Source of the DNA: Candidatus Uhrbacteria bacterium
GTDB taxonomy: Bacteria > Patescibacteriota > Patescibacteriia > UBA9934 > GWF2-40-263
Direction of reading: 5' to 3'
Length of the DNA stretch: 54,623 nucleotides
Assembly (NCBI GenBank): GCA_016188475.1
Contig: JACPHT010000005.1
Span: 1 to 54,623, forward strand
Shown: positions 8,623 to 54,623 of the stretch, in pieces
How the letters are laid out: every line of letters starts with the position of its first letter
Numbering within the stretch: position 1 is the stretch's first letter
The notes under the pieces: model-generated
Told to the model about the DNA's origin: nothing
What the model saw: only the letters and a program-made list of their open reading frames with translations
Database searches by the model: none
Made by a program: the position numbers and the translations under genes

Positions 8623-9759
8623 ATGACTACTGAACAATTCTTAATTTTGATGGTAATAATCCTCGTAATCGTAATTGTTGTTCTTATTGCGAAACGAAAT
8701 CACCCAAACATCGACTCAGGAGATAAAATTTATAACCTTTTCAATGATCTGAGGAAGGAAATTCAGGAAACTACAAACACTCAACGTCGTGAAGTTCATG
8801 AAAAACTTGATGTAATGCACAACCGTCTTGTTCAAAACATGACAGATTCTTCATCAACTCTTCAAAAACATTTCCATGAAACAGCAAATATGTTTAAGGA
8901 CGTGAACGAGCGTTTATTCACTTTAGACAGTACAAACAAACAAATTCTCAACTATTCAGATCAACTAAAAAGTCTTGAAAACATTCTTAAAAATCCAAAA
9001 CAACGAGGAATACTTGGCGAGTATTGGCTTGAAACATTATTGGGACAGGTTTTAACAGTTGGACAATACAAAATGCAGTATCAACTTGGAATTGATGAAA
9101 CAACCGGACAAAAACTGATTCCTGATGCGGTAATTTTTGTAAAAGAAATGATAATTCCTATTGACGCAAAATTTTCGTTAGAAAATTATAACAGAATTGT
9201 GCAGGAAACTGATCCGATCAGACGTGATGAGCTTGAAAAACAGTTCAAATCAGATGTAAAGATAAGAATTGACGAAACTTCACGTTATATTCAGCCAGAA
9301 AAAGGGACAACCAACTTCGCGTTTATGTTTGTTCCAGCGGAAGGTGTTTATCATAATCTTATCAATGCTGATATTGGCGCAGTAAAGGTCAATTCTCGAA
9401 ATTTAATTGAATACGCATTTGAAAAAGGCGTTATGATCGTCTCACCAACTTCATTTTTTGCTTATTTGCAAACAGTGTTGCTTGGACTCAAAGCGCTCCA
9501 GATTGAAGAGTCTGTAAAAGAAATCCAAAAACACGCCGAACTTCTCATGCGCCATATGAAAGCATATGAAGAACATCACAATCGTGTTGGAAAACATCTT
9601 GAAACAACTGTTCGCGCATTCACAAGCTCGTCAAACGAACTCAAAAAGATAGATAAAGATATATTCCGAATAACAGAAGGAACAGCCGGGAAGCAACTTG
9701 ATATTCTTGAAATTGAATCAGGAACTGAAGGCGACGAAGTTGTTGAGCAGTCTGATTGA
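8623..9759 (+). CDS. rmuC: DNA recombination protein RmuC
   Basis: 378 aa. An N-terminal membrane helix (about 5-25, ILMVIILVIVIVVLIA) is followed by a coiled coil (about 35-125) and the RmuC nuclease-like core (LKNPKQRGILGEYWLETLL, LIPDAVIFV, PIDAKFSLENY, PAEGVYHNLI). RmuC proteins limit DNA inversions and are thought to act on DNA at the membrane through a PD-(D/E)XK-like fold. The Asp in PDAV and the DAK motif fit that fold. The start ATG is preceded by AAACATGCAAT with no SD, as for other housekeeping genes here. It is followed by a separate transcription unit whose promoter overlaps its stop codon. Confidence 0.93.
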   Translation: MTTEQFLILMVIILVIVIVVLIAKRNHPNIDSGDKIYNLFNDLRKEIQETTNTQRREVHEKLDVMHNRLVQNMTDSSSTLQKHFHETANMFKDVNERLFTLDSTNKQILNYSDQLKSLENILKNPKQRGILGEYWLETLLGQVLTVGQYKMQYQLGIDETTGQKLIPDAVIFVKEMIIPIDAKFSLENYNRIVQETDPIRRDELEKQFKSDVKIRIDETSRYIQPEKGTTNFAFMFVPAEGVYHNLINADIGAVKVNSRNLIEYAFEKGVMIVSPTSFFAYLQTVLLGLKALQIEESVKEIQKHAELLMRHMKAYEEHHNRVGKHLETTVRAFTSSSNELKKIDKDIFRITEGTAGKQLDILEIESGTEGDEVVEQSD

Positions 9760-9784
9760 CATTCTTTATTTTTATATGTTAAAT
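9756..9784 (+). promoter_or_regulatory. Promoter of the 162-aa membrane-protein cassette
   Basis: TTGACA (9756-9761), a 17-bp spacer and TTAAAT (9779-9784). The -35 box overlaps the rmuC stop codon, so the downstream gene has its own promoter. Confidence 0.7.
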
Positions 9785-9830
9785 CAATTCGCCAAAGTGG
9801 CAAACTTAGTTAACGAAAGGAAAGGTAAAA

Positions 9831-10319
9831 ATGGACAGTATAAAAACGCTGGCGACTTTTCAGGGGGCTGTGTTGACGATTTTTTTGGGCGTGTCCGAAT
9901 CGACAATGACACTGAATGATCATGATGTGTCGACATTGAGCGTAATCGGCGCAATGTTCGCTATTGCCTCAATCTCGGCATTGATCGCGGCGATATTCAA
10001 ATCAAGACTTGCTCTCTACATCATGACCGCTTCCATAATCGCTTTTGCCACAGTATTCGGAACGTTTGCAACCTTCCCTACGGATATCATCGTTTTTGTG
10101 GCACTTTGGATCTGTTTCATGCGCACAGTAGATGAATCCAGACTTTTGCCGGTTTGGGTCTTACCACTCGCAATCACAGAAATACTTGGTATATTTCTGC
10201 CGCTTCGTCTCAATGAACCTGTCGGTTTCATTATCGGAATAGCGTGCGCAATAGCTCTTATTGGATGCGGTAACTTTCTCAACGATCAAAAAGCTCTCAA
10301 ACCCTCTTCTCCCGCATAA
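9831..10319 (+). CDS. Small polytopic membrane protein, unknown function
   Basis: 162 aa, almost entirely hydrophobic, with about five transmembrane helices (near 40-60, 62-80, 82-102, 112-130 and 134-152). No motif was recognised. The start is fixed by a strong SD (GAAAGGAAAGG) at the usual distance. A separate promoter lies upstream and an intrinsic terminator overlaps the stop region, making an independent one-gene unit. Codons are visibly G/C-richer than in rmuC or rpsT. It belongs to the cassette-like class described in the findings. Function unknown. Confidence 0.75.
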   Translation: MDSIKTLATFQGAVLTIFLGVSESTMTLNDHDVSTLSVIGAMFAIASISALIAAIFKSRLALYIMTASIIAFATVFGTFATFPTDIIVFVALWICFMRTVDESRLLPVWVLPLAITEILGIFLPLRLNEPVGFIIGIACAIALIGCGNFLNDQKALKPSSPA

Positions 10320-10348
10320 CCATCGTGTTGTGCGGATTTTTTCTTTTC
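10312..10348 (+). terminator. Intrinsic terminator of the 162-aa gene
   Basis: Stem CCGCA (10312-10316)/TGCGG (10331-10335), extended by an inner AC/GT pair and followed by TTTTTTCTTTT. Confidence 0.8.
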
Positions 10349-10435
10349 CAACATGACTTAACGCGGTCGTTCACATTCTATATTCGCTGACACTTGTTTT
10401 AATGAATGATTAATTTCAAATACCATTGATAGTAG

Positions 10436-10499
10436 CAGTTGTGCTATGTCGTAGGGAACAGCGGCGACAGTCCGATGGCCCGGAGACATGGCGCAACTG
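10436..10499. ncRNA. Unassigned hairpin RNA candidate
   Basis: A 15-bp helix joins CAGTTGTGCTATGTC (10436-10450) and GACATGGCGCAACTG (10485-10499), all pairs Watson-Crick or G-U. It closes a G/C-rich 34-nt apical region in otherwise AT-rich intergenic DNA (10349-10594). The conserved SRP RNA loop (GGAAG...AGCAGCC) is absent and I recognise no riboswitch class. Either strand could be transcribed. Confidence 0.45.
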
Positions 10500-10594
10500 A
10501 TACTAATGCCCAATTAAGACATTTGATCATTTGACATTTGATATTTTCAGATACAGCGGTCAAGAACAGAGGATGTACACAACCAGCTCACAAC

Positions 10595-10622
10595 TTGACT
10601 CTTTTCAACCATAATGTAAACT
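10595..10622 (+). promoter_or_regulatory. Probable rpsT promoter
   Basis: TTGACT (10595-10600), a 16-bp spacer and TAAACT (10617-10622), about 110 bases upstream of rpsT. Confidence 0.55.
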
Positions 10623-10648
10623 AACGCCGTTCTTAAACAAAACCAATT

Positions 10649-10666
10649 CCACGGCTAAAGCCGTGG
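10649..10666. repeat. REP-like palindrome
   Basis: CCACGGCTAAAGCCGTGG is a palindromic hairpin. A degenerate relative (CCACG...CGTGG around GCTTTAGA) occurs at 32632-32649, suggesting a dispersed small repeat. Confidence 0.6.
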
Positions 10667-10731
10667 GCTACCAATCTCATCACTAAAGCCTGCGGCTACC
10701 AAAAACCCAAAACCTAAAACCTGATTATTCT

Positions 10732-11001
10732 ATGCCTATCCTAGAAAACGCCAAAAAAGCGCTTCGACAAAGCGTGAAACACGAAAAACGAAATCAGACT
10801 ATCAAAGCCGAGATTCACTCTTTGCGTGTTAAGCTTCGCAAAGCTGTCACATCAAAAAAAATCGATGAGGCAAAAGAGGTCGTCAAACTAATTGGAAAAA
10901 AGCTCGACAAAGCGCAATCAAAAAAGATTTTCAAAAAAAATACCGTGGCTCGATTAAAGTCACGAATGATGCAAAAAGTAAACGCGCTCAAGATTTCGTA
11001 A
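10732..11001 (+). CDS. rpsT: 30S ribosomal protein S20
   Basis: 89 aa, standard length and composition for S20: very basic, helical, Ala/Lys-rich, with the typical start MPILENAKKALRQSVKHEKR and the KNTVARLKSRM segment near the C-terminus. S20 binds 16S rRNA early in 30S assembly. The ATG follows a low-complexity leader (AAACCCAAAACCTAAAACC) with no SD. The 3' end overlaps convergent holA by 14 bp, and the likely terminator lies inside holA. Confidence 0.97.
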   Translation: MPILENAKKALRQSVKHEKRNQTIKAEIHSLRVKLRKAVTSKKIDEAKEVVKLIGKKLDKAQSKKIFKKNTVARLKSRMMQKVNALKIS

Positions 11002-11968
11002 GTAAATGGTCTGTAACAAGATCAGTTGCAAGATCGGCCGAAATCCGGCCGGTTTTTATTTTCAAATCATATTCAAACAAAAGATCATGAGCTGTTTTCA
11101 AATCATTGAATGTAAAGAGTCGCGCTTGATCCAAAGATTTTTGCGCAACAAATGGATGAACACCAAGCTCTTCTGCAACTGTTTGCTTTGTTACACGCGG
11201 ATCTTGATCGAGCAGTGCGCGAGCTCCAAGCAAAATCCGAACCTGTCGTCCGAGCATTGTCAAAAGATAGTGATCGTCCGATCCTGCAGAACGTTCTTCT
11301 TCAAGTAAACGAATCGCGCGCGATGTTTGTTTTTTAGAAATCGCATCAATGAGCTCGAAAATCTTTCCTTCAAATGTTGCGTGCACAAGTTCATCAACCA
11401 TTTCTTTTGTGATGGTTTTGCCGTTACTGAAAGCAACTAGTTTTTCAATCTCATGCGACATTTGCCACAAGTCACTTCCAACTCTTTCAATAATCGCTGA
11501 AAGCGCGTCTGGTTCGATAAAACCTCCAAGTTTTTTCACGCGATCTGATATCCATGTTGTCAATGCAATACCAGAAAGAACAGGAAATGAATAAGTATGA
11601 ACTTCTGCCGTTTTTGAAAGTTCCTTTACCCAAGTTTTTTTCTCTGCAGCTTTTGCCTCGATTGCTTCCCAAAGAATAACAATACTCGATTCTGGCATGC
11701 GGCCAAATCCATCAAGCCAAATTTTTTCATCAGGTTTTTTCAAAAAAGAAAATAAACCGTTCACAAGCACCATTCGACGAGAACCTAAAAAAGGAAACGA
11801 GCACATTGATTGTAAAACATCTGACACTTCAAGTTTGTTTGAATCATCAGACGGAAAATCAACAATATTGTATCCTGTTGGATCAAATTTTTGTCGAAAC
11901 GCGTCTTTCAGTTGCCGAACTTTTTCCACAACGCGAAATGCGTCTTCACCGTAAACAAGAATGAGCAT
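10988..11968 (-). CDS. holA: DNA polymerase III delta subunit
   Basis: 326 aa. This is the clamp-loader subunit that opens the beta clamp. Matching features are the start MLILVYGEDAFRVVEKVRQ, the SMCSFPFLGSRRMVLVNGLF segment used for clamp interaction, a central LWQMSHEIEKLVAF region and the C-terminal helical collar (LLTMLGRQVRILLGARAL). The start lies one base after the polA stop, so polA and holA form an operon. The 3' end overlaps rpsT, and the rpsT terminator is embedded antisense in its last codons. Confidence 0.92.
   Translation of the reverse strand: MLILVYGEDAFRVVEKVRQLKDAFRQKFDPTGYNIVDFPSDDSNKLEVSDVLQSMCSFPFLGSRRMVLVNGLFSFLKKPDEKIWLDGFGRMPESSIVILWEAIEAKAAEKKTWVKELSKTAEVHTYSFPVLSGIALTTWISDRVKKLGGFIEPDALSAIIERVGSDLWQMSHEIEKLVAFSNGKTITKEMVDELVHATFEGKIFELIDAISKKQTSRAIRLLEEERSAGSDDHYLLTMLGRQVRILLGARALLDQDPRVTKQTVAEELGVHPFVAQKSLDQARLFTFNDLKTAHDLLFEYDLKIKTGRISADLATDLVTDHLLTKS
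11035..11062 (+). terminator. rpsT terminator inside the 3' end of holA
   Basis: Stem CGGCCG (11035-11040)/CGGCCG (11046-11051) with an AAATC loop, then GTTTTTATTTTC. It is oriented for rpsT but lies in antisense holA coding sequence. Confidence 0.8.
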
Positions 11969-11969
11969 A

Positions 11970-14561: not shown

Positions 14562-15323
14562 TTAGCATGGCTTCTCGGCTTTGTCCCAAATCAAGTCAAA
14601 AAGCGTTTCATAGCTTCTAGCAATATCGCCGGATGCCAAAATAATCATTGTATTTTCCTTTCGTGTTGTGATGAACGCAACGTTCCCAGCAAAAGTAATA
14701 ATGGTGGCAGGAAGAACAGTCCCGGCTGGAAGGAAACGAGACTCGCGCAATTCTTCTTTGTCTTTTTCAACTATCTTTTTTCCATCGCGACTTTTTGGTA
14801 TAAGTTGGCGACTCTTGATCCCACGTTTTATTCTTTCCGCAATCACTCGTTTCACAATGTAATGCTCTTTTACATAATCAAGAAGTCCAACCCCTGTTGT
14901 TATCAGACGATATTCTTTTACACCGGACTGAAAAAGTTGTTTCCACATTCGCTTGAATCCGTCTGTGCCTTCATAAATCGTAACCCCAGGTCCTTCTTCA
15001 ACTGTATCTTTGAGCAACTGAAGCAAAGGTATTGTTTTTAAAAATAATTTTCCTCGTTCTCTCATTACCATTTCAAGAGTGTCTGGTGGTTCTGCAATAT
15101 AAACTGTTGTTTTTTTCTCTTTACCCAAACGAAAAACTTCGTGGCGAACCAGTCGCTCTAAAATTGGATATAAAGTTGTGCGAGGTAATTCTGTACGTCT
15201 TGAAAGGCCAAGGACTGTTGAAGATCCAAGTTCAAGACCAGCCAAATATACTTTGACTTCTTTCTCGTCAAGTCCGTACGCGCCAAGTCCCTTTATGAGA
15301 TCCGGCGGATATTTCATACGCAT
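14562..15323 (-). CDS. TrmB-family transcriptional regulator
   Basis: 253 aa. The N-terminal winged helix-turn-helix (about 12-75) fits TrmB: LGAYGLDEKEVKVYLAGLEL, SRRTELPRTTLYPILERLVRHEV. A C-terminal effector-like domain (about 105-250) carries GVTIYEGTDGFKRMWKQLF. TrmB proteins are common in archaea and CPR and usually sense sugars or other metabolites. It lies upstream of and co-directional with polA-holA, and is divergent from the DUF3307 gene. The shared intergenic region has two AAAATAGGA direct repeats 20 bp apart, a possible autoregulatory site. The ligand is unknown. Confidence 0.82.
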   Translation of the reverse strand: MRMKYPPDLIKGLGAYGLDEKEVKVYLAGLELGSSTVLGLSRRTELPRTTLYPILERLVRHEVFRLGKEKKTTVYIAEPPDTLEMVMRERGKLFLKTIPLLQLLKDTVEEGPGVTIYEGTDGFKRMWKQLFQSGVKEYRLITTGVGLLDYVKEHYIVKRVIAERIKRGIKSRQLIPKSRDGKKIVEKDKEELRESRFLPAGTVLPATIITFAGNVAFITTRKENTMIILASGDIARSYETLFDLIWDKAEKPC

Positions 15324-15350: not shown

Positions 15351-15379
15351 AAAATAGGAAGTGTTGTCGAAAAATAGGA
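15351..15379. promoter_or_regulatory. Possible operator: two direct repeats
   Basis: AAAATAGGA occurs at 15351-15359 and 15371-15379, a 20-bp period (about two helical turns), in the divergent region between the TrmB-like gene and the DUF3307 gene. A possible -10 for the rightward gene is TATAAA at 15404-15409. Confidence 0.4.
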
Positions 15380-15447
15380 CACATTCTATTGGAATATTTT
15401 CACTATAAATTACTCTGTCATTAGACAACAGAAAAAGGGGGTGCCCC

Positions 15448-15792
15448 GTGATCGCTTTGACCATGTTCAACCTTTCGATCCTGTACTTGTGCGCGCACTT
15501 CATTGGTGACTTTGCCTTCCAGAGTGCGTGGATGGCAATGGAGAAAGGGAAGAACGTCGAAGTGCTGATCTATCATAGCGCGACATACACAGCTCCGTTC
15601 GCGGCCTTGCTCGCACTGCTCGATGGTCGCTCACCACTGGTTCCAAGCGTTCTGTTCGCACTTGTTATCTTTGGAACGCATGTGCTGATCGACACGCTCT
15701 CGGCACGACTGAAGGTAATCAAGACAATCTGGGCTGACCAGTTGTGCCATTTCGCAGTGATTGCGCTTCTGCTCTTTGTCGGTTGGCTTTGA
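15448..15792 (+). CDS. DUF3307 membrane protein
   Basis: 114 aa. Recognised by the DUF3307 pattern: CAHFIGDFAFQSAWMAMEKG at the N-terminus, a central His in IYHSATY, FGTHVLIDTLSARL, and ADQLCHFAVIALLL near the end. About four hydrophobic helices. Spaced His/Asp residues in the membrane helices are typical of the family, whose function is unknown and which is often found in phage, plasmid and accessory regions. The GTG start is set by the strong SD AAAAAGGGGGTG. Codons are G/C-rich compared with flanking polA. It has its own strong terminator, so it is a cassette-like unit. Confidence 0.85.
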   Translation: MIALTMFNLSILYLCAHFIGDFAFQSAWMAMEKGKNVEVLIYHSATYTAPFAALLALLDGRSPLVPSVLFALVIFGTHVLIDTLSARLKVIKTIWADQLCHFAVIALLLFVGWL

Positions 15793-15801: not shown

Positions 15802-15856
15802 AGCTCCCACACCATGCCCGCCAAAGCCTTGGCGACGGCGGGTCGGGAGCTTTTTC
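15802..15856 (+). terminator. Terminator of the DUF3307 gene
   Basis: Nested stems AGCTCCC (15802-15808)/GGGAGCT (15845-15851) and CCCGCC (15817-15822)/GGCGGG (15837-15842), then TTTTTC. The inner part resembles a common dispersed palindrome (CCCGCCAAAGCCTTGGCG). Confidence 0.85.
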
Positions 15857-15860: not shown

Positions 15861-15900
15861 AAATAAAAAACCGCACTTTCGGAGTTTCCGATTATGCGGT
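15861..15900 (-). terminator. Terminator of the 348-aa gene (leftward)
   Basis: On the minus strand, ACCGCA pairs with TGCGGT with an inner CGGA/TCCG helix, followed by TTTTTTATTTT. Confidence 0.8.
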
Positions 15901-15928: not shown

Positions 15929-16975
15929 CTAGGCGATTGCTCTTGAAAAGTCGCCCGAGGTTGCGCGATCGATCATGGCGGTGAACGCAGTGTTGCCGGC
16001 CGCGTATCCCTCGATCGTTGTGATGTGCAGACGATTTGGTCCACCATTGTTCTGCCTTGCGGCAACGAAACCGGTCTCGACGTCGATTCTCTGCGGGGCC
16101 GGGTCAGTTTTCTGTATTTCGATCACTGACTGGCCGATGCACAGAGTGATCTGGAAACCTTTTTCGCTGGTCAGAGACACTACGGCCGGAACGAGCAACC
16201 GCTTGCCGTTCTTCACGGCAGTGACAATGATCGTCGTGCCGTCTTTATCGACTGGAAGGGAAAAGTCCTCGATCTTGTCGACTGACAGGCCTTTCACGAT
16301 CCACTTCGGACGCTCGCCAGTTTCGAACACCTGCGTGATCTGATCAGTATTGATCGCGAAGACCTGTTGGCCGTCCATCTGCGCAACGATCACGATATTT
16401 TTGCAAGCGATCCCGAAGGTCGGAATCCCTGCATTGATCGGAGTCATTATCTCGGTCAGCTGATCAGTTCCTTTGTTTCTGCTCGCGCACAAAGTACGCT
16501 CACCCTGGCGGGAAAGGAGCAGAAGTGTGGACGATTCAGAACTAAAGACGTTTCCGTCAGTATCGAATATGGCTTCACAGAAGTTTTCGTACGCCTTGTC
16601 GGTCAGCCTGTCGGTCCTGATTCCTGTGTCCCATGCAGAGACTATGACTCCGCTGTCCATAGCCGAGATGAATGAAGCGTAATTGTGGCCCGGAAGAAGC
16701 ATTTCGATTGCGTCTTCCTTTGTGATGACTCCAGAGATCGATGCGATGTCAGCTGCTGTACAGCCGATGAGAACTTCGGGATCTACGAAAATCAGGTGAG
16801 CATTCGTGCCGTCCTGACTTATTCCGAAGCAGATGATTCCTGCAGGAGGTAGCCCATTGGAAACCAACTGGCTGGTGAGCTCGGCGATCTGCTTCTGGGG
16901 GCCAACCGCGCTTTTGAGCGAGGTTATGCCCCCTTTTCCCCTGAAGTCGATCTGCCTCTCATGGATCTGTTTCAT
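15929..16975 (-). CDS. Unknown 348-aa beta-rich protein of the cassette class
   Basis: The ATG at 16975 (MKQIHERQIDFRG) was chosen because AAAGAGGG lies just upstream; the frame stays open to 17086 but that extension has no SD. The protein is predicted soluble and rich in short beta strands with regular Asp/Gly turns (FGISQDGTNAHLIFVD, FDTDGNVFSSESST, VDKDGTTIIVTAV), which could be a beta-propeller or repeated sandwich, but no family was recognised. Codons are G/C-rich. A TTGACA -35 box (17078-17083, minus strand) and an intrinsic terminator flank it, so it is a self-contained unit. A role in the cytoplasm is assumed from the lack of a signal peptide. Confidence 0.75.
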   Translation of the reverse strand: MKQIHERQIDFRGKGGITSLKSAVGPQKQIAELTSQLVSNGLPPAGIICFGISQDGTNAHLIFVDPEVLIGCTAADIASISGVITKEDAIEMLLPGHNYASFISAMDSGVIVSAWDTGIRTDRLTDKAYENFCEAIFDTDGNVFSSESSTLLLLSRQGERTLCASRNKGTDQLTEIMTPINAGIPTFGIACKNIVIVAQMDGQQVFAINTDQITQVFETGERPKWIVKGLSVDKIEDFSLPVDKDGTTIIVTAVKNGKRLLVPAVVSLTSEKGFQITLCIGQSVIEIQKTDPAPQRIDVETGFVAARQNNGGPNRLHITTIEGYAAGNTAFTAMIDRATSGDFSRAIA

Positions 16976-17093
16976 CGAACCCTCTTTCTTTTTTGCCCTG
17001 TTCGGGCCGTTTAGCTGTGCTTTACCTGAACATACAGGCAAGCAGGCGACCGATAGTGTGCCTGAAGAAAAAATAAGTGTCAACATGATAGGT

Positions 17094-17173
17094 CACTCAA
17101 GTGGCTTTTGTGGTCTACAAAAAAACCACAGAACAAATCTGAGGTTTTTTTGTGGGGCGACCACCGGGAATTG
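17094..17173. repeat. 80-bp direct repeat, copy 1 (truncated tRNA-His 3' end plus terminator)
   Basis: Identical over 80 bp to 17273-17352. It contains the tRNA-His 3' part from the T-loop to CCA and the following hairpin terminator. Between the copies is a 99-bp G/C-rich insert with palindromes CCTCTGCAGAGG and ACGGCGTC/GACGCCGT. Confidence 0.95.
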
Positions 17174-17272
17174 CCCGCGCCTCTCGCCTCTGCAGAGGCT
17201 CGGGCTGGGCACCGCCTCGCCACGGCGTCTGCTGACGCCGTATGGCTCCGGCGTTCAATTCCCGACAAAAGC
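17174..17272. other. G/C-rich palindromic insert between tRNA-His repeats
   Basis: 99 bp, much richer in G/C than the surroundings. The edges form an inverted repeat CGGGAATTG/CAATTCCCG with the neighbouring repeat copy. Internal palindromes are CCTCTGCAGAGG, GAGGC/GCCTC and ACGGCGTC tgct GACGCCGT. No gene is credible. Confidence 0.7.
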
Positions 17273-17352
17273 CACTCAAGTGGCTTTTGTGGTCTACAAA
17301 AAAACCACAGAACAAATCTGAGGTTTTTTTGTGGGGCGACCACCGGGAATTG
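17273..17352. repeat. 80-bp direct repeat, copy 2 (at intact tRNA-His)
   Basis: Exact duplicate of 17094-17173. Its right end lies inside the intact tRNA-His gene at the T-loop. Confidence 0.95.
17297..17331 (-). terminator. Terminator after tRNA-His
   Basis: AAAAAAACCACAG pairs with CTGAGGTTTTTTT with one mismatch around AACAAAT, so it can act in both directions. The same structure is duplicated about 179 bp to the left. Confidence 0.75.
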
Positions 17353-17407
17353 AACCCGGATCAGGAGAGCCACAATCTCCTGTGTTAACCGTTACACCAT
17401 GGCCGCC
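17332..17407 (-). tRNA. tRNA-His(GUG)
   Basis: Cloverleaf on the minus strand. The extra G at -1 opposite C73 is the histidine identity pair. Acceptor GCGGCCA/TGGTCGC, anticodon stem GGAGA/TCTCC, loop TTGTGGC giving GTG, T-arm CCGGG/CCCGG, encoded CCA. Its 3' portion is duplicated downstream. Confidence 0.95.
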
Positions 17408-17496: not shown

Positions 17497-17596
17497 GCGC
17501 AGACAGTGTAATCTATCTTGCTTTTTTTGTTGAGTCAATAGACTTGACAAGCACAAAAAAATATGGAAAACTGCGATGTCAGAAAAGGAGGGCTTG

Positions 17597-17800
17597 ATGA
17601 GCCAAGTCACGGAAGGCACACTTTCAATCTCTTACGGTCATGGCGGAAGATTCTACTGCAAAACCAAGCGCAGAAAAGTCTTGCTCGGAAAATGTCTTGA
17701 CGATTATGTAAACATGAACGCACTTGAAAGAACAAAGGCCGCGTGCTGGAAATGCGGTCAGGGCCGCAAAGTGCGAACAAACTTTTCAATGGAAGGCTAA
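17597..17800 (+). CDS. Cys-rich mini-protein A, putative zinc binder
   Basis: 67 aa. The ATG at 17597 was chosen over one seven codons earlier because AAAGGAGGGC precedes it at ideal spacing. Four Cys at 21, 33, 50 and 53 sit in the pattern Y-C-K(x10)K-C-LDDYV ... C-W-K-C-x-QGR. The protein is very basic. The downstream gene encodes a paralog with the same pattern and spacing, and the genes overlap as TAATG, implying translational coupling. TTGACA at 17544-17549 may be its -35. Metal and nucleic-acid binding are inferred from the Cys spacing and basic charge; no known family was recognised. Confidence 0.72.
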   Translation: MSQVTEGTLSISYGHGGRFYCKTKRRKVLLGKCLDDYVNMNALERTKAACWKCGQGRKVRTNFSMEG

Positions 17801-18102
17801 TGGAAATGCCAGATATTGAAAGCGACTTCTATTGCAAGGGAAGACGAAGGAGGGTTCAGTACGACAAATGTCTAGATGACTACGTGGATGCTAACTTTTC
17901 AAGGGAGTCTGCCAACGACCTACGAAAAGTCATGGAGGACAGGACTAAGCTCTGTTTAATACATAAGAAAGCAAAAAAGTCTTCATGCTGGCGCTGTCCA
18001 CAAGGGCGTAGAATCAGAGAAGTATTTGCCGAAGAAGGCTTCGCTCTTCTGACCAGTATGACACTTGTGGACGTGCTTCGGATGTTGAGATCCTTCGACT
18101 AA
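17800..18102 (+). CDS. Cys-rich mini-protein B, paralog of the preceding gene
   Basis: 100 aa with the start at the ATG overlapping the previous stop. FYCKGRRRRVQYDKCLDDYV and SSCWRCPQGRRIREVF align directly with protein A. Cys at 12, 24, 63 and 66 keep the same C-x11-C and CWxC-x-QGR pattern, with one more Cys at 52. It differs by a 20-residue insertion before the last Cys pair (RKVMEDRTKLCLIHKK) and a C-terminal amphipathic tail. The pair probably arose by tandem duplication and may act as a heterodimer. A terminator follows at 18109. Confidence 0.72.
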   Translation: MEMPDIESDFYCKGRRRRVQYDKCLDDYVDANFSRESANDLRKVMEDRTKLCLIHKKAKKSSCWRCPQGRRIREVFAEEGFALLTSMTLVDVLRMLRSFD

Positions 18103-18108: not shown

Positions 18109-18145
18109 GAGCGGCTTCACGATAAGTCGCTCGTTTTTTTATTTT
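18109..18145 (+). terminator. Terminator of the Cys-rich pair
   Basis: GAGCGGCTT (18109-18117)/AAGTCGCTC (18124-18132) with one mismatch, then GTTTTTTTATTTT. The right arm and T-run lie in the 3' end of the convergent Xer gene. Confidence 0.8.
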
Positions 18146-32741: not shown

Positions 32742-32872
32742 GAGAGATTGTTGCAATACTTCTATTCTTGCCTGAGCTTGTCGAAGGCTGTAGGCAAATA
32801 AGCCAAATTTTACCCATTCGACAGGCTCAGGGAATAAAATTTGGCTTTTGAACAGAGTTTTTCAACGGTCTC
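32742..32872. repeat. Palindromic TIR element, copy A
   Basis: Nested inverted repeats: outer GAGA...GTTG...AC left end versus GAGTTTTTCAACGGTCTC right end; middle CCTGAGCTTGTCGAAGG (32771-32787) versus TTCGACAGGCTCAGG; inner GCCAAATTTTA (32802-32812) versus TAAAATTTGGC (32835-32845). No ORF. Same family as copies at 40035, 43418 and 51178. Confidence 0.8.
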
Positions 32873-32882: not shown

Positions 32883-32910
32883 TTGACATAAAATAATACT
32901 TGTGTAAAAT
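32883..32910 (+). promoter_or_regulatory. Promoter of the ParB-like accessory operon
   Basis: TTGACA (32883-32888), a 16-bp spacer and TAAAAT (32905-32910), about 60 bases upstream of the first GTG. Confidence 0.75.
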
Positions 32911-32972: not shown

Positions 32973-33707
32973 GTGAGAAGCGAAGGATTGCGAGGACATA
33001 TAGAAGATTGTGTACGTGACCTTGCCGGAAGGCTTGAATCAAGATATCCAAAAGGTTCAAGATCCTGCGCATTCATCAGACAACCAATCGCAGACTTCTG
33101 CGGTGTGGGATTGAAAACCGCCACAAGGTGGCTTCACAGCCCAGACTCTCTTCCAAACGGAACCCAGCTCATAAAGCTCATGTGTTATTTACAAATGATC
33201 GGCTACCGTGTAATTGAGTGGGAGAAAATCCCGGTTGCTCGCAGGAACTTTGCGGAACTTCTAGGATTCGGGATCCTTTCGGTAGAGCAAGCTCGCGTGA
33301 TAATCGGTTACTCCACAACAACCACAACTTATCAAGTCCTACTTGGCCACTACGGTACAAGCAAGGACAAAGATGGGATTATGTGGGAAACGTGGAAATC
33401 GAAAATGGGCGAGCTCGAGGGAGTGAAATCGGATGCTCTGCAAAAATATCGTCTTGATCTCTCAAGTGTAAAACAGCCGAGAACAGAAACTCAAGGACAG
33501 ATTCCTCAAGCAATCGCTCCAACTCGATTTACGGCGATATCCTATTTCATGGACGGCTTGAAAGCACTGCTTGAGGATAAATCTTTCATAAACACTGAAC
33601 TTGACTCTGCTGACGTTGCGCCGCTCAAAGAAACTATAAGCAGACTCCAACAAGTTTTGAGTGTTATACACTCGAAACTGAAAGGAGATGCTAATGACGA
33701 CGAATGA
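32973..33707 (+). CDS. Unknown protein, first gene of the ParB-like operon
   Basis: 244 aa from the GTG at 32973, chosen because GGAGGG lies seven bases upstream; the frame extends to a TTG at 32937 without an SD. The N-terminal 90 residues look like a small helical DNA-binding region: IADFCGVGLKTATRWLHSP fits a helix-turn-helix with a DNA-recognition helix, and NGTQLIKLMCYLQMIGY resembles Xre-type helix 5. The C-terminal 60 residues are helical and may dimerise. No known family. The end overlaps the next start by 14 bases. Codons are G/C-rich. Confidence 0.72.
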   Translation: MRSEGLRGHIEDCVRDLAGRLESRYPKGSRSCAFIRQPIADFCGVGLKTATRWLHSPDSLPNGTQLIKLMCYLQMIGYRVIEWEKIPVARRNFAELLGFGILSVEQARVIIGYSTTTTTYQVLLGHYGTSKDKDGIMWETWKSKMGELEGVKSDALQKYRLDLSSVKQPRTETQGQIPQAIAPTRFTAISYFMDGLKALLEDKSFINTELDSADVAPLKETISRLQQVLSVIHSKLKGDANDDE

Positions 33708-33957: not shown

Positions 33958-34755
33958 GTGAAGGTTGTGGGGATTCGAAGAGTTCGTGTAACTGACCTGA
34001 AGATGAATCTGTTCGTACGAAAAGAGCTCAACACCGAACACGCGCTGTACTTGGGTCAGCTCATTGAGAGTGGTGTCAAGATGAAGGACATGATCGATGT
34101 AACTGACCGCGGTGGAGAGCAGAACGTCGTAGTCGAGGGCCGTCACCGAAAAGAGGGCTACGAACTCGCGCACGTGGAAGATATCGATGTTAGGGTTCTC
34201 GAATTCGAGTCCGAGGCTGAAATGATCGGCTACGCGTACCGAGCCAACACCGGCGGATCTCTTCCTCCGACGCCACAAGACACAGAGCACACAGTCATGT
34301 TGCTCATCGATAAGGGAGAGACAATCAAGCACATCGGTGAGCTTCTCGGACTTCCTGCTAGCATGGCGCGTATTTACGTCAAGTCAGTGAAATCCAAGAT
34401 AGCAAGACAGAACCTTATGAAAGCAACTGCCGCTGTCACAGAAGGCGGACTCACGGTTCAGCAGGCAGCTGAAAAGCACGGTGCGGATTTCGAAGATCTC
34501 AAAACCCATCTTTCTGGCAAGCGCAAACAGCGCAAGAATGGAGTCGCGGACATCCAGCGCTCTCTGACCTCCGCATACAAGTCCATGGGTTCCAGCAACG
34601 CAGCGATGATCAGAAGCCTCCTTGAAAAACTCGAGGACGGCGATGTGACACGCAAGCAGGTGACGGAAATTTTCAATCACCTCACAGCTCTTCAGAAGTC
34701 GGCCTTACGCTCTATTGAAGGATGGAGAAAGAGGTTCGAGGCAAAAAAAGCCTAA
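33958..34755 (+). CDS. ParB/Srx-like nuclease-fold DNA-binding protein
   Basis: 265 aa with a GTG start preceded by AGCAAGGAG. The N-terminal ParB/sulfiredoxin-like domain (about 1-95) shows VVVEGRHRKEGYELAHVEDI, corresponding to the ParB GERRxxA nucleotide-binding box, and the later helix-turn-helix (about 120-150) is IKHIGELLGLPASMARIYVKS. The C-terminal third is basic and helical. The box differs from chromosomal ParB (one Arg replaced by His) and no parA is adjacent, so it is more likely an accessory ParB-fold regulator than the segregation ParB. It is the third gene of a promoter-to-terminator unit 2.5 kb from dnaA. Confidence 0.78.
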   Translation: MKVVGIRRVRVTDLKMNLFVRKELNTEHALYLGQLIESGVKMKDMIDVTDRGGEQNVVVEGRHRKEGYELAHVEDIDVRVLEFESEAEMIGYAYRANTGGSLPPTPQDTEHTVMLLIDKGETIKHIGELLGLPASMARIYVKSVKSKIARQNLMKATAAVTEGGLTVQQAAEKHGADFEDLKTHLSGKRKQRKNGVADIQRSLTSAYKSMGSSNAAMIRSLLEKLEDGDVTRKQVTEIFNHLTALQKSALRSIEGWRKRFEAKKA

Positions 34756-34781: not shown

Positions 34782-34804
34782 ACAGCCACTTTGGCTGTTT
34801 TTTC
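34782..34804 (+). terminator. Terminator of the ParB-like operon
   Basis: ACAGCCA (34782-34788)/TGGCTGT (34792-34798) with TTTTTTC. Confidence 0.8.
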
Positions 34805-34876: not shown

Positions 34877-36169
34877 ATGCCATCAATCAATATCGAGGAA
34901 AAAGAAAAAGCGACTATAAAAATAACCTTCACTGTTACTCAAGAAGAAGCCAGACCTTATCTTGAAGAAGCGGCTGAACGACTCTGCAAGCAAACTCCAA
35001 TCCCGGGTTTTCGCCCAGGAAAAGCGGGTTTTGAAATTGTAAAACAGCGTTTTGGTGAGATGAAAATTTTGGAAGAAGCGCTCGAACCTATTATCAGAAA
35101 ATCATTCGTTGAAGCGGTTCTTTCGCATAACATCGAAACTGTTGGCTCGCCAAAAATCGATGTTGAAAAATTAGCTCCAGGAAATGATATTGTTTTTATT
35201 GCTGAAGTTGCGCGAATGCCAAAAGCGCTCTCTCTTACTGATTACAAAAAACTAACTGTCACAGCAAAACCTGTCGAAATTACTGACAAAGAAATTGATC
35301 TTGCGATCCGTGATATTCAAAAAATGCAAACAAAAGAAGTTCGTTCGAAATCAGGATCTCAAATCAACGAAAAAAATAAAGTGGTTCTATCAATGAGCAT
35401 TAAAAAAGATGGTGTTGCGATCGATGGGGGACAGTCACCTAACCACGCTATCTATTTGTCCGAGGATTATTATATTCCCGGTCTTAAGGAACAATTGATC
35501 GGATTGAAAGAAGGAGACCAAAAAACATTCACACTTCCGTTTCCAAAAGAGCATGTTCAAAAAATGTTAGCGGGAAATAATGTTGATTTTGATATTACAA
35601 TCAAAGAAATTTATAACCTTGAACCTCCTGTAATTGATGACGTGTTTGCAAGTTCACTCGGAACGAAGGACCTAAATGAATTAAGAAAAAAAATCGACAA
35701 AAATTTAAGGGACGAAAAAGAGATTGAAGAACAGACTCGTCAAGAAAAAGAAATGTTTGACCTACTTGTAAAGAAATCTCAGTTTGAAGAAATCCCGGAT
35801 CTTCTTTTGAATGAAGAAATAAATAAAATGATTGATGAACTAAAGCGCAATGTTGAGTCTCAAGGTCTTGAATTTGAAACCTACATTTCAAATCTTAAAA
35901 AGACGCTTGCTCAGCTTAAAATTGATTTTACCCCGCAAGCGTTAACGAGAATCAAAGTTGCGATTGCTCTTCGCTTTGTTGCTGAAAAAGAAAATGTCGA
36001 AATAAAAGATGATGAAGTCGACGCGGAGCTTGATAGAATCGCTGGACATTACGAAGATCCTGAAATGAAAAAACGAGTTTATGAACCGTCATTTCGAGAA
36101 TACATTGAACGCGTGCTTATAAATCGAAAAACTATTAGTTTGCTTAAACAGCTCATGGTGAAAGTATGA
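34877..36169 (+). CDS. tig: Trigger factor
   Basis: 430 aa, normal length. The N-terminal ribosome-binding domain has the signature loop GFRPGKAGFEIVKQRFG, slightly diverged from GFRxGKxP. A central FKBP-type prolyl isomerase domain (about 150-240) carries KVVLSMSIKKDG, PGLKEQLIGLKEGDQKTFTLPFP, and the C-terminal helical chaperone arms follow. It binds nascent chains at the ribosome exit. No SD; the leader is a degenerate TTAGCC repeat. The stop overlaps yggU by ATGA. Confidence 0.93.
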   Translation: MPSINIEEKEKATIKITFTVTQEEARPYLEEAAERLCKQTPIPGFRPGKAGFEIVKQRFGEMKILEEALEPIIRKSFVEAVLSHNIETVGSPKIDVEKLAPGNDIVFIAEVARMPKALSLTDYKKLTVTAKPVEITDKEIDLAIRDIQKMQTKEVRSKSGSQINEKNKVVLSMSIKKDGVAIDGGQSPNHAIYLSEDYYIPGLKEQLIGLKEGDQKTFTLPFPKEHVQKMLAGNNVDFDITIKEIYNLEPPVIDDVFASSLGTKDLNELRKKIDKNLRDEKEIEEQTRQEKEMFDLLVKKSQFEEIPDLLLNEEINKMIDELKRNVESQGLEFETYISNLKKTLAQLKIDFTPQALTRIKVAIALRFVAEKENVEIKDDEVDAELDRIAGHYEDPEMKKRVYEPSFREYIERVLINRKTISLLKQLMVKV

Positions 36170-36396: not shown

Positions 36397-36642
36397 AACT
36401 GGATCATTTCCACCTTTTGAAAAAGGATTGCACCGCAAAATTCGCTTCAAAGCCATCAAACCACCACGCAAAACACCATATTGATCTATGGCTTGATAAC
36501 CGTAATCTGAACAAGTTGGGTTAAACCGGCAAAAACCGTCTGGATAAAAATACCGAACGAATCCGTGATCAAAAGAAATCGTCTTTTGATATATCCTTAT
36601 AGTGAACAAAACAATTTCTTTGAAAAAAACACGCAAACTCAT
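36391..36642 (-). CDS. yidD: Membrane protein insertion efficiency factor YidD
   Basis: 83 aa. The hallmark CRFNPTCSDYGYQAIDQYG, then LKRILRCNPFSKGGNDPV, gives the conserved Cys pattern. YidD sits at the membrane near YidC and aids insertion. It is the last gene of the rpmH-rnpA-yidD operon and overlaps rnpA by four bases. yidC is not adjacent on this side of the window's origin region. The last Cys-His motif has Asn in place of His (RCNPF). Confidence 0.94.
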   Translation of the reverse strand: MSLRVFFKEIVLFTIRIYQKTISFDHGFVRYFYPDGFCRFNPTCSDYGYQAIDQYGVLRGGLMALKRILRCNPFSKGGNDPVL

Positions 36643-41390: not shown

Positions 41391-41398
41391 TAAAATAA

Positions 41399-41436
41399 AA
41401 AAGACCCGCGTTCGTTTACGGGTCTTTTGTTTTTTA
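41399..41436 (+). terminator. livK terminator
   Basis: AAAAGACCCG (41399-41408)/CGGGTCTTTT (41419-41428) followed by GTTTTTT. It may give more binding protein than permease, as seen in other liv operons. Confidence 0.85.
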
Positions 41437-41491
41437 CATAGAATAATCATGGTAAACCTGTCGTAAATTATTAAATTCAAAAAATTTATCT

Positions 41492-41643
41492 CCTGAGCCT
41501 GTCGAAGGAATAAATTTTAAGCTTTTCGTCGTTGGTGTTGTACGGTCTGGCTTTCAGCCAGGCATCGTCCAACCCGTCTCGGAGGTACGAAGCCAAGCAG
41601 TTGGCTTCTTTACTCCTCCTCGACTCCCTTCGACAAGCTCAGG
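41492..41643. repeat. Variant palindromic element between livK and livH
   Basis: Outer arms CCTGAGCCTGTCGAAGG (41492-41508) and CCTTCGACAAGCTCAGG (41627-41643) are almost perfect complements. The inside differs from the main family and holds GAAGCCAA/TTGGCTTC and GCCTGGCT/AGCCAGAC-type hairpins. No credible gene lies in 41437-41684. Confidence 0.75.
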
Positions 41644-41684
41644 GAATAACAACGTTTCATAATTCACAACCCCATGACTTTCTT

Positions 41685-49191: not shown

Positions 49192-49228
49192 AAAACAGCC
49201 CGGCTAAAATCTGGGCTGTTTTAATTTT
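49192..49228 (+). terminator. Terminator of the 3D-domain gene
   Basis: AAAACAGCCC (49192-49201)/GGGCTGTTTT (49213-49222) followed by AATTTT. It is nearly palindromic and could also end tRNA-Cys transcription leftward. Confidence 0.8.
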
Positions 49229-49232
49229 ATTT

Positions 49233-49308
49233 TGGAGGCCACGGCCGGGGTTGAACCGGCGCATAGCGGTTTTGCAGACCGCCGCGTTAACCACTTCGCC
49301 ACGTGGCC
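49233..49308 (-). tRNA. tRNA-Cys(GCA)
   Basis: Acceptor GGCCACG/CGTGGCC, discriminator U73 (cysteine identity), anticodon stem GCGGT/ACCGC with loop CTGCAAA giving GCA, T-loop TTCAACC, encoded CCA. Confidence 0.95.
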
Positions 49309-49385
49309 ATAAACTCACTGTTCCGAAATGTATCAGAGTTTCTTTTCAAAATCAATGAAACTAGCTAAGATTAATTTTGAATTAT

Positions 49386-49931: not shown

Positions 49932-49974
49932 AAAGCTTGAATTTTTTTTGTTTTTTTGTTAGTCTCGCTTGGCT

Positions 49975-51180: not shown

Positions 51181-51303
51181 CCTCTGCAAAACTTCCGATT
51201 ATTGCCTGAGCCTGTCGAAGGCCGCGAATGAATGAGCCAATTTTACCCATTCGACAAGCTCAGGGAATAAAATTTGGTAATAAATTCGAGTTTTACAGAG
51301 TTC
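51178..51303. repeat. Palindromic TIR element, copy D
   Basis: 126 bp between nifS and the NifU-like gene. Ends TGACCTCTGCAAAACTTC and GAGTTTTACAGAGTTCA are inverted repeats with two to three differences. Middle arms CCTGAGCCTGTCGAAGG/TTCGACAAGCTCAGG are kept; the inner AATTTTA arm is shortened. The first three bases are the nifS stop codon. Confidence 0.8.
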
Positions 51304-51315
51304 ATTATAAATATT

Positions 51316-51957: not shown

Positions 51958-51969
51958 CATTTCAATCTT

Positions 51970-52236
51970 ATGAAACTACGAATCAAAGTCGATCCAGACC
52001 TTTGTATTGGCGCGGCATCGTGCGTGACAGTGTCTCCTGAAACATTTCAACTCAATGATGAAAATAAAGCCGTTGTTTTAGATCATTCTCAAGAACCAAA
52101 TGGCAGAACTTATGAGCGTTGGATTGAAGTAAATGACGATGAAAAGGAAAACATTTTTCTTGCCGCGCAATCTTGTCCAACACTCGCCATTTTTATTTTT
52201 GATGAAGAAGGGAAGCAATTATTTCCAGAGTTATGA
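51970..52236 (+). CDS. Single-cluster ferredoxin with three Cys ligands
   Basis: 88 aa. Pattern VDPDLCIGAASCVTVSPETFQ ... AAQSCPTLAIFIFDEEG of short mono-cluster ferredoxins. Only C12, C18 and C69 remain; the Cys normally at position 15 is Ala. This suggests a [3Fe-4S] cluster, or a [4Fe-4S] cluster with one open or non-Cys site. It lies between the scaffold and the FAD reductase (ATGA overlap), so it likely accepts electrons from that reductase. Confidence 0.88.
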   Translation: MKLRIKVDPDLCIGAASCVTVSPETFQLNDENKAVVLDHSQEPNGRTYERWIEVNDDEKENIFLAAQSCPTLAIFIFDEEGKQLFPEL

Positions 52237-53432
52237 GTATGCGCTATGTCATAATTGGAGGTGGAATTGCTGGAACAACAGCGGCGGAAGAATTGAGAAA
52301 ACTCGATCCTTCATCTGAAATCACCATTGTCTCTGAAGAACAGCACCCGATTTATTCGCGGGTGCTCTTGCCTCATTACATAAAAGGAAAAATTCCGCGC
52401 GAGCGTGTTTTTTTGAAAAAAGAAAATTGGTATAGCGAGCAAAACATCGACTGGATGCCAGGAGTTTTGGCTGTTTATTTGGACACAAAAAATAAATTCG
52501 TCACACTTTCAAACGGTCGCGAGATTGAATACGACAAGATGTTAATTGCAACAGGTGGAGAACCAAGGACGATTTTTGAAAATTCACGCAATATTTCTTA
52601 TTTGCGATCTTTGAGCGACGCTGACAATTTTTTAGAACTTCTAAACAGTCGTGAAAATAATTGCAATGGAGAAGTTTTTGGAGGCGGGTTTATCGCGTGT
52701 GAATACATAAATCTGTTCGCTCATTTTAGTATTCCAACTCGTGTATCGCTTCGCGGTGATTTTTTTTGGTCAAAAATTTTAGATCGCGAACCAGCTGAAT
52801 TTGTAAATCAATATTTGGGAAAAAACGGAATCACATTAAGGAAAAATGTTTCGTTTAAGGATTCTTTTATTGAAGAAGAATTGAAAAATAAGAGTTCAAT
52901 TTTTGGAATCGGAATCGGAATTGAAACGGATTTTTCATGGCTGAAAGAATCTGGAGTTGAAATTAGTTCTGGGATTCGAGCGAATGAGTTTTTGGAGACA
53001 AACATTCCAGATGTTTATACAGCAGGAGACGTTGCAGAATTTTACGATGTGATCGTTGGCAGACATTTGAAAATGGGAAATTGGATGAGCGCAATGTCGC
53101 AAGGTCGTGTTGTTGCGCAAAACATGTTTGGAAATAAAATTGTTTTTGAGCTTGTTTCGTCTTATGCCACAAACATTCTGGGTCTAGAAGTGATTTTTAT
53201 TGGCGATGTTTCAAAAGAATCGGCCGATGAAGTGAGGATTATTGGTTCTATTGAAGAAGGCGGGATAACACAGCTGTTCGGTCGAAAAGGTCAGCTGGTT
53301 GGCGCTGTTTTGCTCAATAGAAATTCCGACCGTCAAATTATTACAGATTTTATAAAAAATAAGGGTTTATTGCCTGATAAAAATAGAGAATTATTGCCTG
53401 AGCTTGTCGAAGGCAGTAAAAAACGTGAATAA
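52233..53432 (+). CDS. FAD-dependent NAD(P)H:ferredoxin/rubredoxin reductase-like protein
   Basis: 399 aa. FAD-binding YVIIGGGIAGTTAAEEL, the family loop SEEQHPIYSRVLLPHYIKG, MLIATGGEPR, a second Rossmann site VFGGGFIACEYINLF (NAD(P)H) and the terminal FAD motif VYTAGDVAEFYD, in the order of nitrite-reductase/rubredoxin-reductase-type pyridine nucleotide oxidoreductases. It is co-translated with the ferredoxin (4-bp overlap). The C-terminal tail LPELVEGSKKRE is encoded by a dispersed repeat (53397-53420) that has extended the reading frame. Confidence 0.9.
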   Translation: MSMRYVIIGGGIAGTTAAEELRKLDPSSEITIVSEEQHPIYSRVLLPHYIKGKIPRERVFLKKENWYSEQNIDWMPGVLAVYLDTKNKFVTLSNGREIEYDKMLIATGGEPRTIFENSRNISYLRSLSDADNFLELLNSRENNCNGEVFGGGFIACEYINLFAHFSIPTRVSLRGDFFWSKILDREPAEFVNQYLGKNGITLRKNVSFKDSFIEEELKNKSSIFGIGIGIETDFSWLKESGVEISSGIRANEFLETNIPDVYTAGDVAEFYDVIVGRHLKMGNWMSAMSQGRVVAQNMFGNKIVFELVSSYATNILGLEVIFIGDVSKESADEVRIIGSIEEGGITQLFGRKGQLVGAVLLNRNSDRQIITDFIKNKGLLPDKNRELLPELVEGSKKRE

Positions 53433-53466
53433 TGAACGCCTTACTGCTTCGACAAGCTCAGCAAGT
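53391..53466. repeat. Repeat-derived inverted repeat at the 3' end of the reductase gene
   Basis: TTGCCTGAGCTTGTCGAAGG with GCAGTAA, and TTACTGC with TTCGACAAGCTCAGC, form a long imperfect hairpin across the stop codon. It is the core of the dispersed element and may also act as a 3' stabiliser or weak terminator. Confidence 0.7.
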
Positions 53467-53515
53467 AAGTCGTTCACTCCATGATTTTGACTTCATTACT
53501 TTTTTCCAACATTGC

Positions 53516-53544
53516 TTGACATTTTGACCAAAACATGATATAAA
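53516..53544 (+). promoter_or_regulatory. Promoter of the last (partial) gene
   Basis: TTGACA (53516-53521), a 17-bp spacer and TATAAA (53539-53544), the best promoter match in the window. Confidence 0.85.
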
Positions 53545-53558
53545 GTGCCCTTCTTCTG

Positions 53559-53694
53559 TGTGCGGAAAACCGCGCATTGAGGAAACAAAACCAGTTATTT
53601 TAGGCGAGGAGGGTATCCCTTCTTGTTTTAGATAACTGTTAGTTCGTTTCTGGTTCATTGCAACCATTTGCGCGGTTAAGTACCGCACAGGAGG
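53559..53694 (+). promoter_or_regulatory. Structured 5' leader, possible riboswitch or RNA thermosensor
   Basis: TGTGCGG (53559-53565) pairs with CCGCACA (53683-53689), and CCGCGCA (53570-53576) with TGCGCGG (53669-53675), closing a domain of about 95 nt. Inside are GAAAC/GTTTC, CAGTTAT (53592-53598)/ATAACTG (53632-53638) and GGAGGG/CCCTTC. The same 5' and 3' arms can also fold into two local hairpins (GTGCGG-aaaa-CCGCGC and GCGCGGT-ACCGCAC), so two exclusive folds exist. The SD GGAGG (53690-53694) directly follows the closing helix. Confidence 0.6.
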
Positions 53695-53702
53695 ATTTGA
53701 AA

Positions 53703-54623
53703 ATGGCTTCTTTTGCAGAGGAACTATCCAGAAAGCTCGCTGAAGAGGCGAGCGAAAACACGATGCACGACGCTGTCGAAGGTGCGATGAAGCGTGCGGC
53801 TGATAAGGGCGAATCCGGAAAGGATATCGCAAGGTCAGGACTTCAAGCTCTATTCAGTGATACGAGTCCTGTCATGCGAACTGCTCGCAGTTTGCGAGGG
53901 TTCGTTCCTCGAGCGGCCTATCCGGTTGTCGCAACAGTTGGCGCAACTGCGCTTGCAAAGTGGGCGGATAATTTTCTGCCAGGCGATACTCGTCCTGGAA
54001 TCAAGGAGGCGCGTTTCATTCTCAAGTACGTTGCGCCACACTTGGTCATCGGAGCTGCAGAAGCGTTCGGAGAAGTTGCGAGTCAGATCGATGAACATGT
54101 CGATAAGGTTCGCAGTGATTTCACCGTTTCTGATGCGCTTTGTGACAAGGAACTTGACTTCGTAGTCGAGGCAGATATGTTCCCGGATCGTATTTTCATT
54201 CCTGCTCGCGACAGCGACGGAAAGGTTCAGACAAATTCGGACGGAACACCTGTTGTTCTCGATCGGGACTACGCAATGGCACAACGTTTATGGGATCAGA
54301 CCCACAAGCCCGAAAAGAAGACGAGTGGCGGTGGTAAGAATCAGCCGCAGAGGACTGAAACAATTCCTGCGGCGCCGTTTCCGTGCCGGCTCGTGTCGCT
54401 TAAAGTTGCGCTTGCTCGGATTTCCTCTGGCTCCATGAACAAGGGTGACGTCGAGGCGATCCAGAAGATGCTCAAGAAGCCTGACAGCTGGGGCGCGAAG
54501 CTCTCGGCTCGGGCAAGAGATCTTCTTCTCGCTCTCTCGGTGACGCGATCCAAGAAAGGTCCGCTCGAGCAGTCGCTTGCGGAGGACTTTTTCAAGGACC
54601 TGCCGAACAAGGGCGATATTGCT
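53703..54623 (+). CDS. Partial unknown protein of the cassette class
   Basis: 307 codons to the window edge, with no stop. Start ATG with SD GGAGG at eight bases. The N-terminus is helical and charged (MASFAEELSRKLAEEASENT), followed by Ala-rich amphipathic segments (about 65-90, FVPRAAYPVVATVGATALA) that could associate with a membrane but are not clear transmembrane helices. Later parts are mixed and basic (KKTSGGGKNQPQRTETI linker at about 215-232, then a helical domain). G/C-rich codons. No family was recognised. It has a strong promoter and an elaborate leader, suggesting high or regulated expression. Confidence 0.75.
   Translation, partial: MASFAEELSRKLAEEASENTMHDAVEGAMKRAADKGESGKDIARSGLQALFSDTSPVMRTARSLRGFVPRAAYPVVATVGATALAKWADNFLPGDTRPGIKEARFILKYVAPHLVIGAAEAFGEVASQIDEHVDKVRSDFTVSDALCDKELDFVVEADMFPDRIFIPARDSDGKVQTNSDGTPVVLDRDYAMAQRLWDQTHKPEKKTSGGGKNQPQRTETIPAAPFPCRLVSLKVALARISSGSMNKGDVEAIQKMLKKPDSWGAKLSARARDLLLALSVTRSKKGPLEQSLAEDFFKDLPNKGDIA

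Follow-up and report, generated by a model that had tools for sequence, protein, structure and literature searches.

The window, a 54,623-nucleotide stretch of DNA, is contig C8 of a Candidatus Uhrbacteria genome (G000; 893,411 bases in 10 contigs, 97.7% complete) whose genes fall into two classes differing in codon usage and in the signal at the translation start, with both traits retained in relatives at conserved loci. The larger class, here called A, contains approximately 650 genes with a GC content at third codon positions (GC3) of about 0.31. The smaller class B contains approximately 115–128 genes, about one in seven, located at 76 separate sites with a GC3 of about 0.5 and commonly led by a Shine-Dalgarno (SD) sequence. 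The genome was rebuilt by joining stretches, and 781 genes were called using codon models trained on long open reading frames (ORFs). The gene caller was home-made and gave the SD a small bonus in start choice; the class labels were taken from the codon model alone, with SD never used for labelling. An SD was scored when a core of at least 5 nt occurred at the correct spacing. Comparisons were made with two genomes of the same genus, G002 (PNP 94% identical) and G001 (PNP 91%), and with many relatives from the family and order.

Genome-wide GC3 is bimodal. When this test, named in a first-pass annotation of the window, was run over the whole genome, a two-component mixture (means 0.31 and 0.50, weights 82/18) was favoured over one component (Bayesian information criterion −2013 vs −1434). 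An SD is present in 20 of 647 class A genes (3.1%, against a chance background of 2.3%) and in 67 of 114 class B genes (59%; Fisher p 1e-46), and the difference persists when longest-ORF starts are chosen blind to the SD (2.5% vs 32%). The contrast noticed in that annotation, between SD-led, G/C-rich genes and SD-less ones, is confirmed and extends to the whole genome, with SD at chance level in class A. The linkage of SD to GC3 is strong though imperfect, with about one quarter of SD genes low in GC3. The base at position −1 is T in 77% of class A genes vs 10% of SD-led class B genes. Operon-first class A genes exhibit a TATAAT-like −10 box that peaks 14–15 nt before the start, a peak absent in class B; this position would put the transcript start at or beside the ATG, and these genes are probably transcribed almost without a leader. 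The anti-SD is intact in the 16S tail (GGATCACCTCCTTT). GTG starts, several of which had been listed as a trait of the SD-led genes, are a minority (13 of 117 class B starts). At 16 other Uhrbacteria loci, homology-defined class A genes have T at −1 in 87 of 96 cases and an SD in 3%, and SD-led ORFs have T at −1 in 2 of 32 and raised GC3 in 27 of 32. Start contexts of EF-Tu across the taxonomic class are mostly T-ATG without an SD, with some exceptions.

Both traits of class B are retained over time. Of 29 class B SDs compared with an orthologue in the genus, 28 are conserved, and just 10 of 371 SD-less class A genes have one in G002. Orthologue GC3 is correlated over 71 class B pairs (r 0.93), though many pairs differ at 30–55% of fourfold sites. 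Changes in SD-led class B genes, polarised with G001 as outgroup, comprise 140 GC>AT and 128 AT>GC, with an implied equilibrium of 0.49 vs 0.33 for class A; arithmetic from the measured rates gives approximately 250 GC>AT and 117 AT>GC if class B mutated like class A. No decay of class B GC3 toward the host composition was seen, and GC3 is kept across genera. Class B also evolves faster, with a median identity of 79% vs 90%, and identity falls below 70% in 33% of syntenic class B vs 2% of class A orthologues.

The organization of the genes differs as well. SD-led class B genes exceed class A in terminators after the operon-last gene (62% vs 23%), strong −35/−10 elements (51% vs 27%), single-gene units (76% vs 36%) and cysteine content (2.04% vs 0.72%), all in the direction of the own promoters, terminators, self-contained units and Cys-rich theme noticed initially in the window alone. 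Class B genes are moderately clustered, with 48 adjacent pairs vs 21 expected. No enrichment of membrane or secreted products was found in class B (transmembrane-like stretch in 36% vs 38%). Leader structure is modestly enriched genome-wide (p=0.03), and strong hairpins also occur in class A upstream DNA.

The clearest leader belongs to the class B gene at 53703 (Table 1), of which 23 of 60 genomes contain relatives. This gene adjoins the same oxidoreductase gene (g0511) in 18 of 18 relatives with a readable neighbour and exceeds it in GC3 in all 18; wherever the start could be read in a relative, an SD precedes it. Outside the genus the proteins are 23–40% identical, and the divergence of the protein follows that of the neighbour (Mantel rho 0.54, p<0.001). 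The leader has a fold z of −5.8, with equal stability in 0 of 200 shuffles, and native arms pair better than species-swapped arms (p=0.0004). Family-wide, the 5′ arm is CCTTCTTC..TGTGCGG and the 3′ arm, CCGCACA-GGAGG, carries the SD. In the consensus of the relatives, the 5′ arm CCTTCTTC could alternatively pair with GAGAAGG followed by TTTTT, forming a terminator-like hairpin. An Rfam search of the leader gave no match at the gathering threshold. The leader is a conserved, predicted SD-sequestering RNA element outside Rfam and a candidate for a riboswitch-like regulator.

The class B gene at 15448 encodes a clear member of the DUF3307 family (PF11750, E 1.8e-14; PHROG 2470). It is found in 18 of 60 relatives, and almost every homologous locus in the order has it divergent from the same TrmB-like gene. 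DUF3307 exceeds its class A neighbours in GC3 in 16 of 16 scorable loci (mean +0.31), with an SD-like motif in each, and its distances follow those of the neighbour more weakly (Mantel rho 0.36, p 0.005). The palindrome between the two genes is likely an operator. The strict form TGTC[AG]-N-[CT]GACA lies upstream in 9 of 16 relatives and is degenerate in the window copy. As a general class B operator TGTC..GACA was rejected, with just 11 intergenic copies in the genome and few of them near class B genes; co-regulation of class B as one regulon, which had been offered as an option, was not demonstrated. Homologues of DUF3307 in Ktedonobacteria lie away from any detectable TrmB gene and have a GC3 close to the expectation from genome GC, which indicates that the GC3 excess is not intrinsic to the DUF3307 protein. 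These homologues (L170–L191) share 45–55% identity with the Uhrbacteria protein, more than some of the Uhrbacteria copies share among themselves, a pattern possibly left by an old transfer between phyla.

Table 1. Positions of class B genes and associated elements in the window
Feature	Position	Strand	Details
Class B gene, 162-aa membrane protein	9831..10319	+	SD AAAGGAAAGG 9816-9825; terminator hairpin 10312-10335 + T-run
TrmB-like HTH regulator, class A, divergent partner of DUF3307	14562..15323	-	TrmB name from N-terminal sequence by eye
Palindrome TGTCGAAAAATAGGACA, candidate operator	15365..15381		divergent intergenic region between TrmB-like gene and DUF3307
Class B gene, DUF3307 membrane protein	15448..15792	+	SD AAAAAGGGGGT 15433-15442; terminator 15802-15855
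Class B gene, 348 aa	15929..16975	-	weak SD GAGGG; terminator ~15864-15899; GC3 0.64
Class B gene, 67-aa Cys-rich protein	17597..17800	+	SD AAAAGGAGGG; -35 TTGACA 17544-17549; GC3 0.51, SD -12.3 kcal
Second small Cys-rich protein	17800..18102	+	start overlaps stop (TAATG); AAGG upstream; terminator ~18110-18135
First gene of three-gene class B unit	32973..33707	+	-35 TTGACA 32883-32888; -10 TAAAAT 32905-32910; SD GGAGGG
Second gene of unit, 86 aa	33694..33954	+	SD AAAGGAG; G001 homologue 77%
Third gene of unit, weakly ParB-like DNA-binding protein	33958..34755	+	SD AAGGAG; terminator 34782-34803; PHROG 1033 E 6.4e-4
Sigma70-type promoter of 53703 gene, TTGACA-17-TATAAA	53516..53544	+	same layout in 14 relatives' leaders
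Structured leader of 53703 (predicted)	53548..53702	+	5′ arm CCCTTCTTCTGTGTGCGG (53548-53565) pairs with CCGCACAGGAGG (53683-53694), masking SD
Class B gene	53703..54623	+	cut by contig end; relatives' open frames ~690-880 aa; SD AGGAGG

All of the genes listed in the first-pass annotation are present; codon-model calling gave the starts 9831, 15448, 16975 (minus strand), 17597, 32973, 33694, 33958 and 53703, and the gene at 17800 is visible by inspection of the sequence. The gene at 9831 (GC3 0.47, SD −7.8 kcal) has an orthologue at the same place in G002 with 53% amino acid identity and the SD kept. The product of 15929–16975 belongs to no Pfam family; it exhibits 61% amino acid identity in G002, and the gene retains its SD and a raised GC3 in 7 of 7 relatives with readable neighbours. 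No match to the gene at 17597 was found at the syntenic site of G002 or in the G001 stretches compared, and the protein encoded at 17800 resembles its product (FYCK..CLDDYV..CW.C..GR). Nearby, the tRNA-His 3′ end/terminator region is duplicated (17086–17173 vs 17270–17355), flanking approximately 100 bp of GC-rich, hairpin-forming DNA; the duplicate is absent in G002 and could be an integration remnant at a tRNA or a tandem duplication. In the three-gene unit, the first gene has a G001 homologue with 71% amino acid identity. Among 60 relatives, only G001 has a homologue of the ParB-like gene (74%), which occupies the matching position ahead of tig, and G002 has a clean empty site with approximately 65 bp instead of the triple. 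Because the triple is common to G000 and the less related G001 and missing in the closer G002, loss in G002, with G001 as outgroup, is simpler than gain.

Class B is probably best understood as a stably kept set of genes under separate expression control, marked by long leaders, initiation at an SD and a distinct codon usage. Uhrbacteria would then use two start-signal grammars within one genome. Class A, AT-rich and SD-less with T just before the ATG, would be the default, alongside class B, which consists mostly of single-gene units with their own promoter, leader, strong SD, GC-richer codons and terminator. Leaders and operators, such as the TrmB palindrome at DUF3307 and the SD-sequestering leader at 53703, would gate SD-dependent initiation in this separately controlled part of the genome, and selection on the coding sequence would maintain its GC3. 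Gain and loss of class B genes would be frequent, yet inheritance would be mainly vertical once a gene is present. Several points weigh against this reading, which is drawn from sequence comparison. The polarised test comprises 15 SD-led genes, and some of their G001 matches are distant and may not be orthologues. Several class B genes have no SD, and some members are lineage-specific. Enrichment of leader structure over the genome is modest, and clear conservation was demonstrated for one leader. The GC3 offset fades or reverses in the GC-richest relatives (L196–L198) and so is no constant. Finally, EF-Tu, GroEL and the ribosomal proteins checked are class A, so high expression does not explain the class B codons.

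The view of the first-pass annotation, that these genes are a mobile pool of foreign cassettes scattered by insertion from GC-richer, SD-using donors, is unlikely. Class B genes are absent from the syntenic site in G002 more often than class A genes (16 of 55, 29%, vs 41 of 427, 10%, counting resolved flanks only), and clean empty sites, patchy families, several multi-copy families and the donor-like SD and codons would all fit such an origin. Patchy presence with empty sites applies to a minority of class B. Among the stretches compared, 17597–18102, C3:16106 and C9:141876 had no counterpart outside G000, which indicates that gain also occurs. A separate, mostly accessory class of self-contained units is supported; a mobile, integron- or moron-like nature is not supported for the members that could be traced. 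The traced members hold the same loci across genera and families, with DUF3307 and 53703 keeping the same partner gene and a vertical signal; substitutions in SD-led class B genes are balanced, GC3 shows no decay, and the pattern of the ParB unit is explained more simply by loss. An all-against-all BLAST of intergenic DNA found repeats abundant around both classes and none specific to class B, though attC is conserved more in structure than in sequence and no structure-based search was made. Inspection of the empty-site junctions by eye revealed no common target motif and no obvious target duplication. The window class B genes are flanked by housekeeping genes with no phage context found, and viral contigs contained no relatives of DUF3307 or the ParB-like protein, the two members searched. 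Integron cassettes and phage morons are likewise mostly single accessory genes with their own promoter or terminator and functions unknown, but the traced class B positions are conserved, and no attC-like or class-specific repeats were seen in that sequence comparison. Nor does the phage moron annotation attached to the PHROG family suit DUF3307 here, which is chromosomal, TrmB-linked and order-wide.

A second alternative, in which recombination between strains is more frequent at class B loci and their GC is sustained by GC-biased gene conversion, is improbable. The fast evolution of class B orthologues would agree with it, as would the raised GC1 and GC2. However, class B leaders are barely GC-richer than class A upstream DNA (~0.44 vs ~0.39) and the GC shift is strongly amino-acid-specific (Phe +1.97 vs Ala +0.21 logit); together these disfavour both uniform mutation and gene conversion, which also leaves the linked SD unexplained. 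Tentatively favoured as the cause of the high GC3 is selection acting on coding sequence in connection with SD-led initiation. The strongest shifts, to C-ending two-fold codons, Lys AAG and Gln CAG, have cognate tRNAs and could suggest ordinary translational selection on a highly expressed set with optimal codons, but the EF-Tu, GroEL, ATP synthase and ribosomal protein genes checked all retain class A codons, and this bias was rejected as very improbable. An artefact of gene calling or SD scoring, conceivable with a home-made caller and its start bonus, is scarcely credible as the signal survives SD-blind starts and homology-defined genes in other genomes and the labels are SD-free.

Several other features of the genome were observed. 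An SD-led cluster (G000:C1:60907-71170) encodes a RuvB-like AAA ATPase, a weak JAB match, a ThiF/E1-like protein and two related proteins of approximately 870–900 aa; it resembles a ubiquitin-like conjugation or defence system, and partner genes are present in G002. A class B reverse transcriptase (PF00078) is encoded at G000:C1:36499-37710, near a 68-bp direct repeat (36045-36112 / 36423-36490) in which A is involved in 8 of 11 mismatches. A search for template/variable pairs like those of a diversity-generating retroelement, linking this region to class B genes, found none. A multi-copy class B family of approximately 203 aa (G000:C3:25288, C7:3332) features a C-terminal W.W..W...PAA.LAS motif; one copy is absent at its G002 site, and a Pfam search of one member gave no match. 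The genome encodes two S-adenosylmethionine synthetases (C1:132897 and C6:49126) that are approximately 32% identical; the class A copy has a GC3 of 0.29 and the class B copy one of 0.71. Among the repeats, a REP-like palindrome (CCTGAGCTTGTCGAAGG / CCTTCGACAAGCTCAGG) has many copies in spacers of both classes (window 32769-32840, 53400-53465 and elsewhere). Seven spacers between class A genes at G000:C4:41800-52900 share 140–250-bp repeats with 90–100% identity and form an array of repeated promoters or cassette-like units. A dispersed MITE-like element of approximately 190 bp, with copies 90–96% identical, is located at window 41391-41684, C9:142383-142630, C10:84004-84240, C6:45381-45643 and C10:106732-107121.

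Bacteroidetes are an example of non-SD-dominated genomes (PMC3155529, PMC5397173). Uhrbacteria are similar in that most genes are SD-less despite an intact 16S anti-SD, but differ in having a large SD-led minority (about 1 in 7) set apart by codon usage, unit organization and conserved control, and default genes with T at −1. Mycobacterial genomes mix leaderless and SD genes (PMC3898074, PMC4633059). They share with Uhrbacteria two initiation modes per genome and common leaderless genes. To our knowledge, the mycobacterial split is not tied to bimodal codon usage, whereas the split in Uhrbacteria follows the GC3 class closely. Titles and abstract openings of open papers included none on SD classes in Patescibacteria, which is weak evidence of novelty. 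Tentatively, Uhrbacteria, possibly together with a large part of their class, may possess a dual expression system. Over family-level time, selection would have held an SD-less T-ATG default separate from an accessory class that is SD-led, controlled through leaders and distinct in its codons, and the system would include an SD-sequestering leader RNA not described before. If so, GC or codon outliers in these genomes would be no safe sign of recent transfer, and a genome that mostly manages without SD would offer a natural test of the purpose of SD initiation. The combination of SD, GC3 and the base at −1 would be a cheap signature separating controlled, fast-evolving and mostly unknown genes from the core in uncultured symbiont-like bacteria, and would yield a short list for studies of host interaction and regulation.

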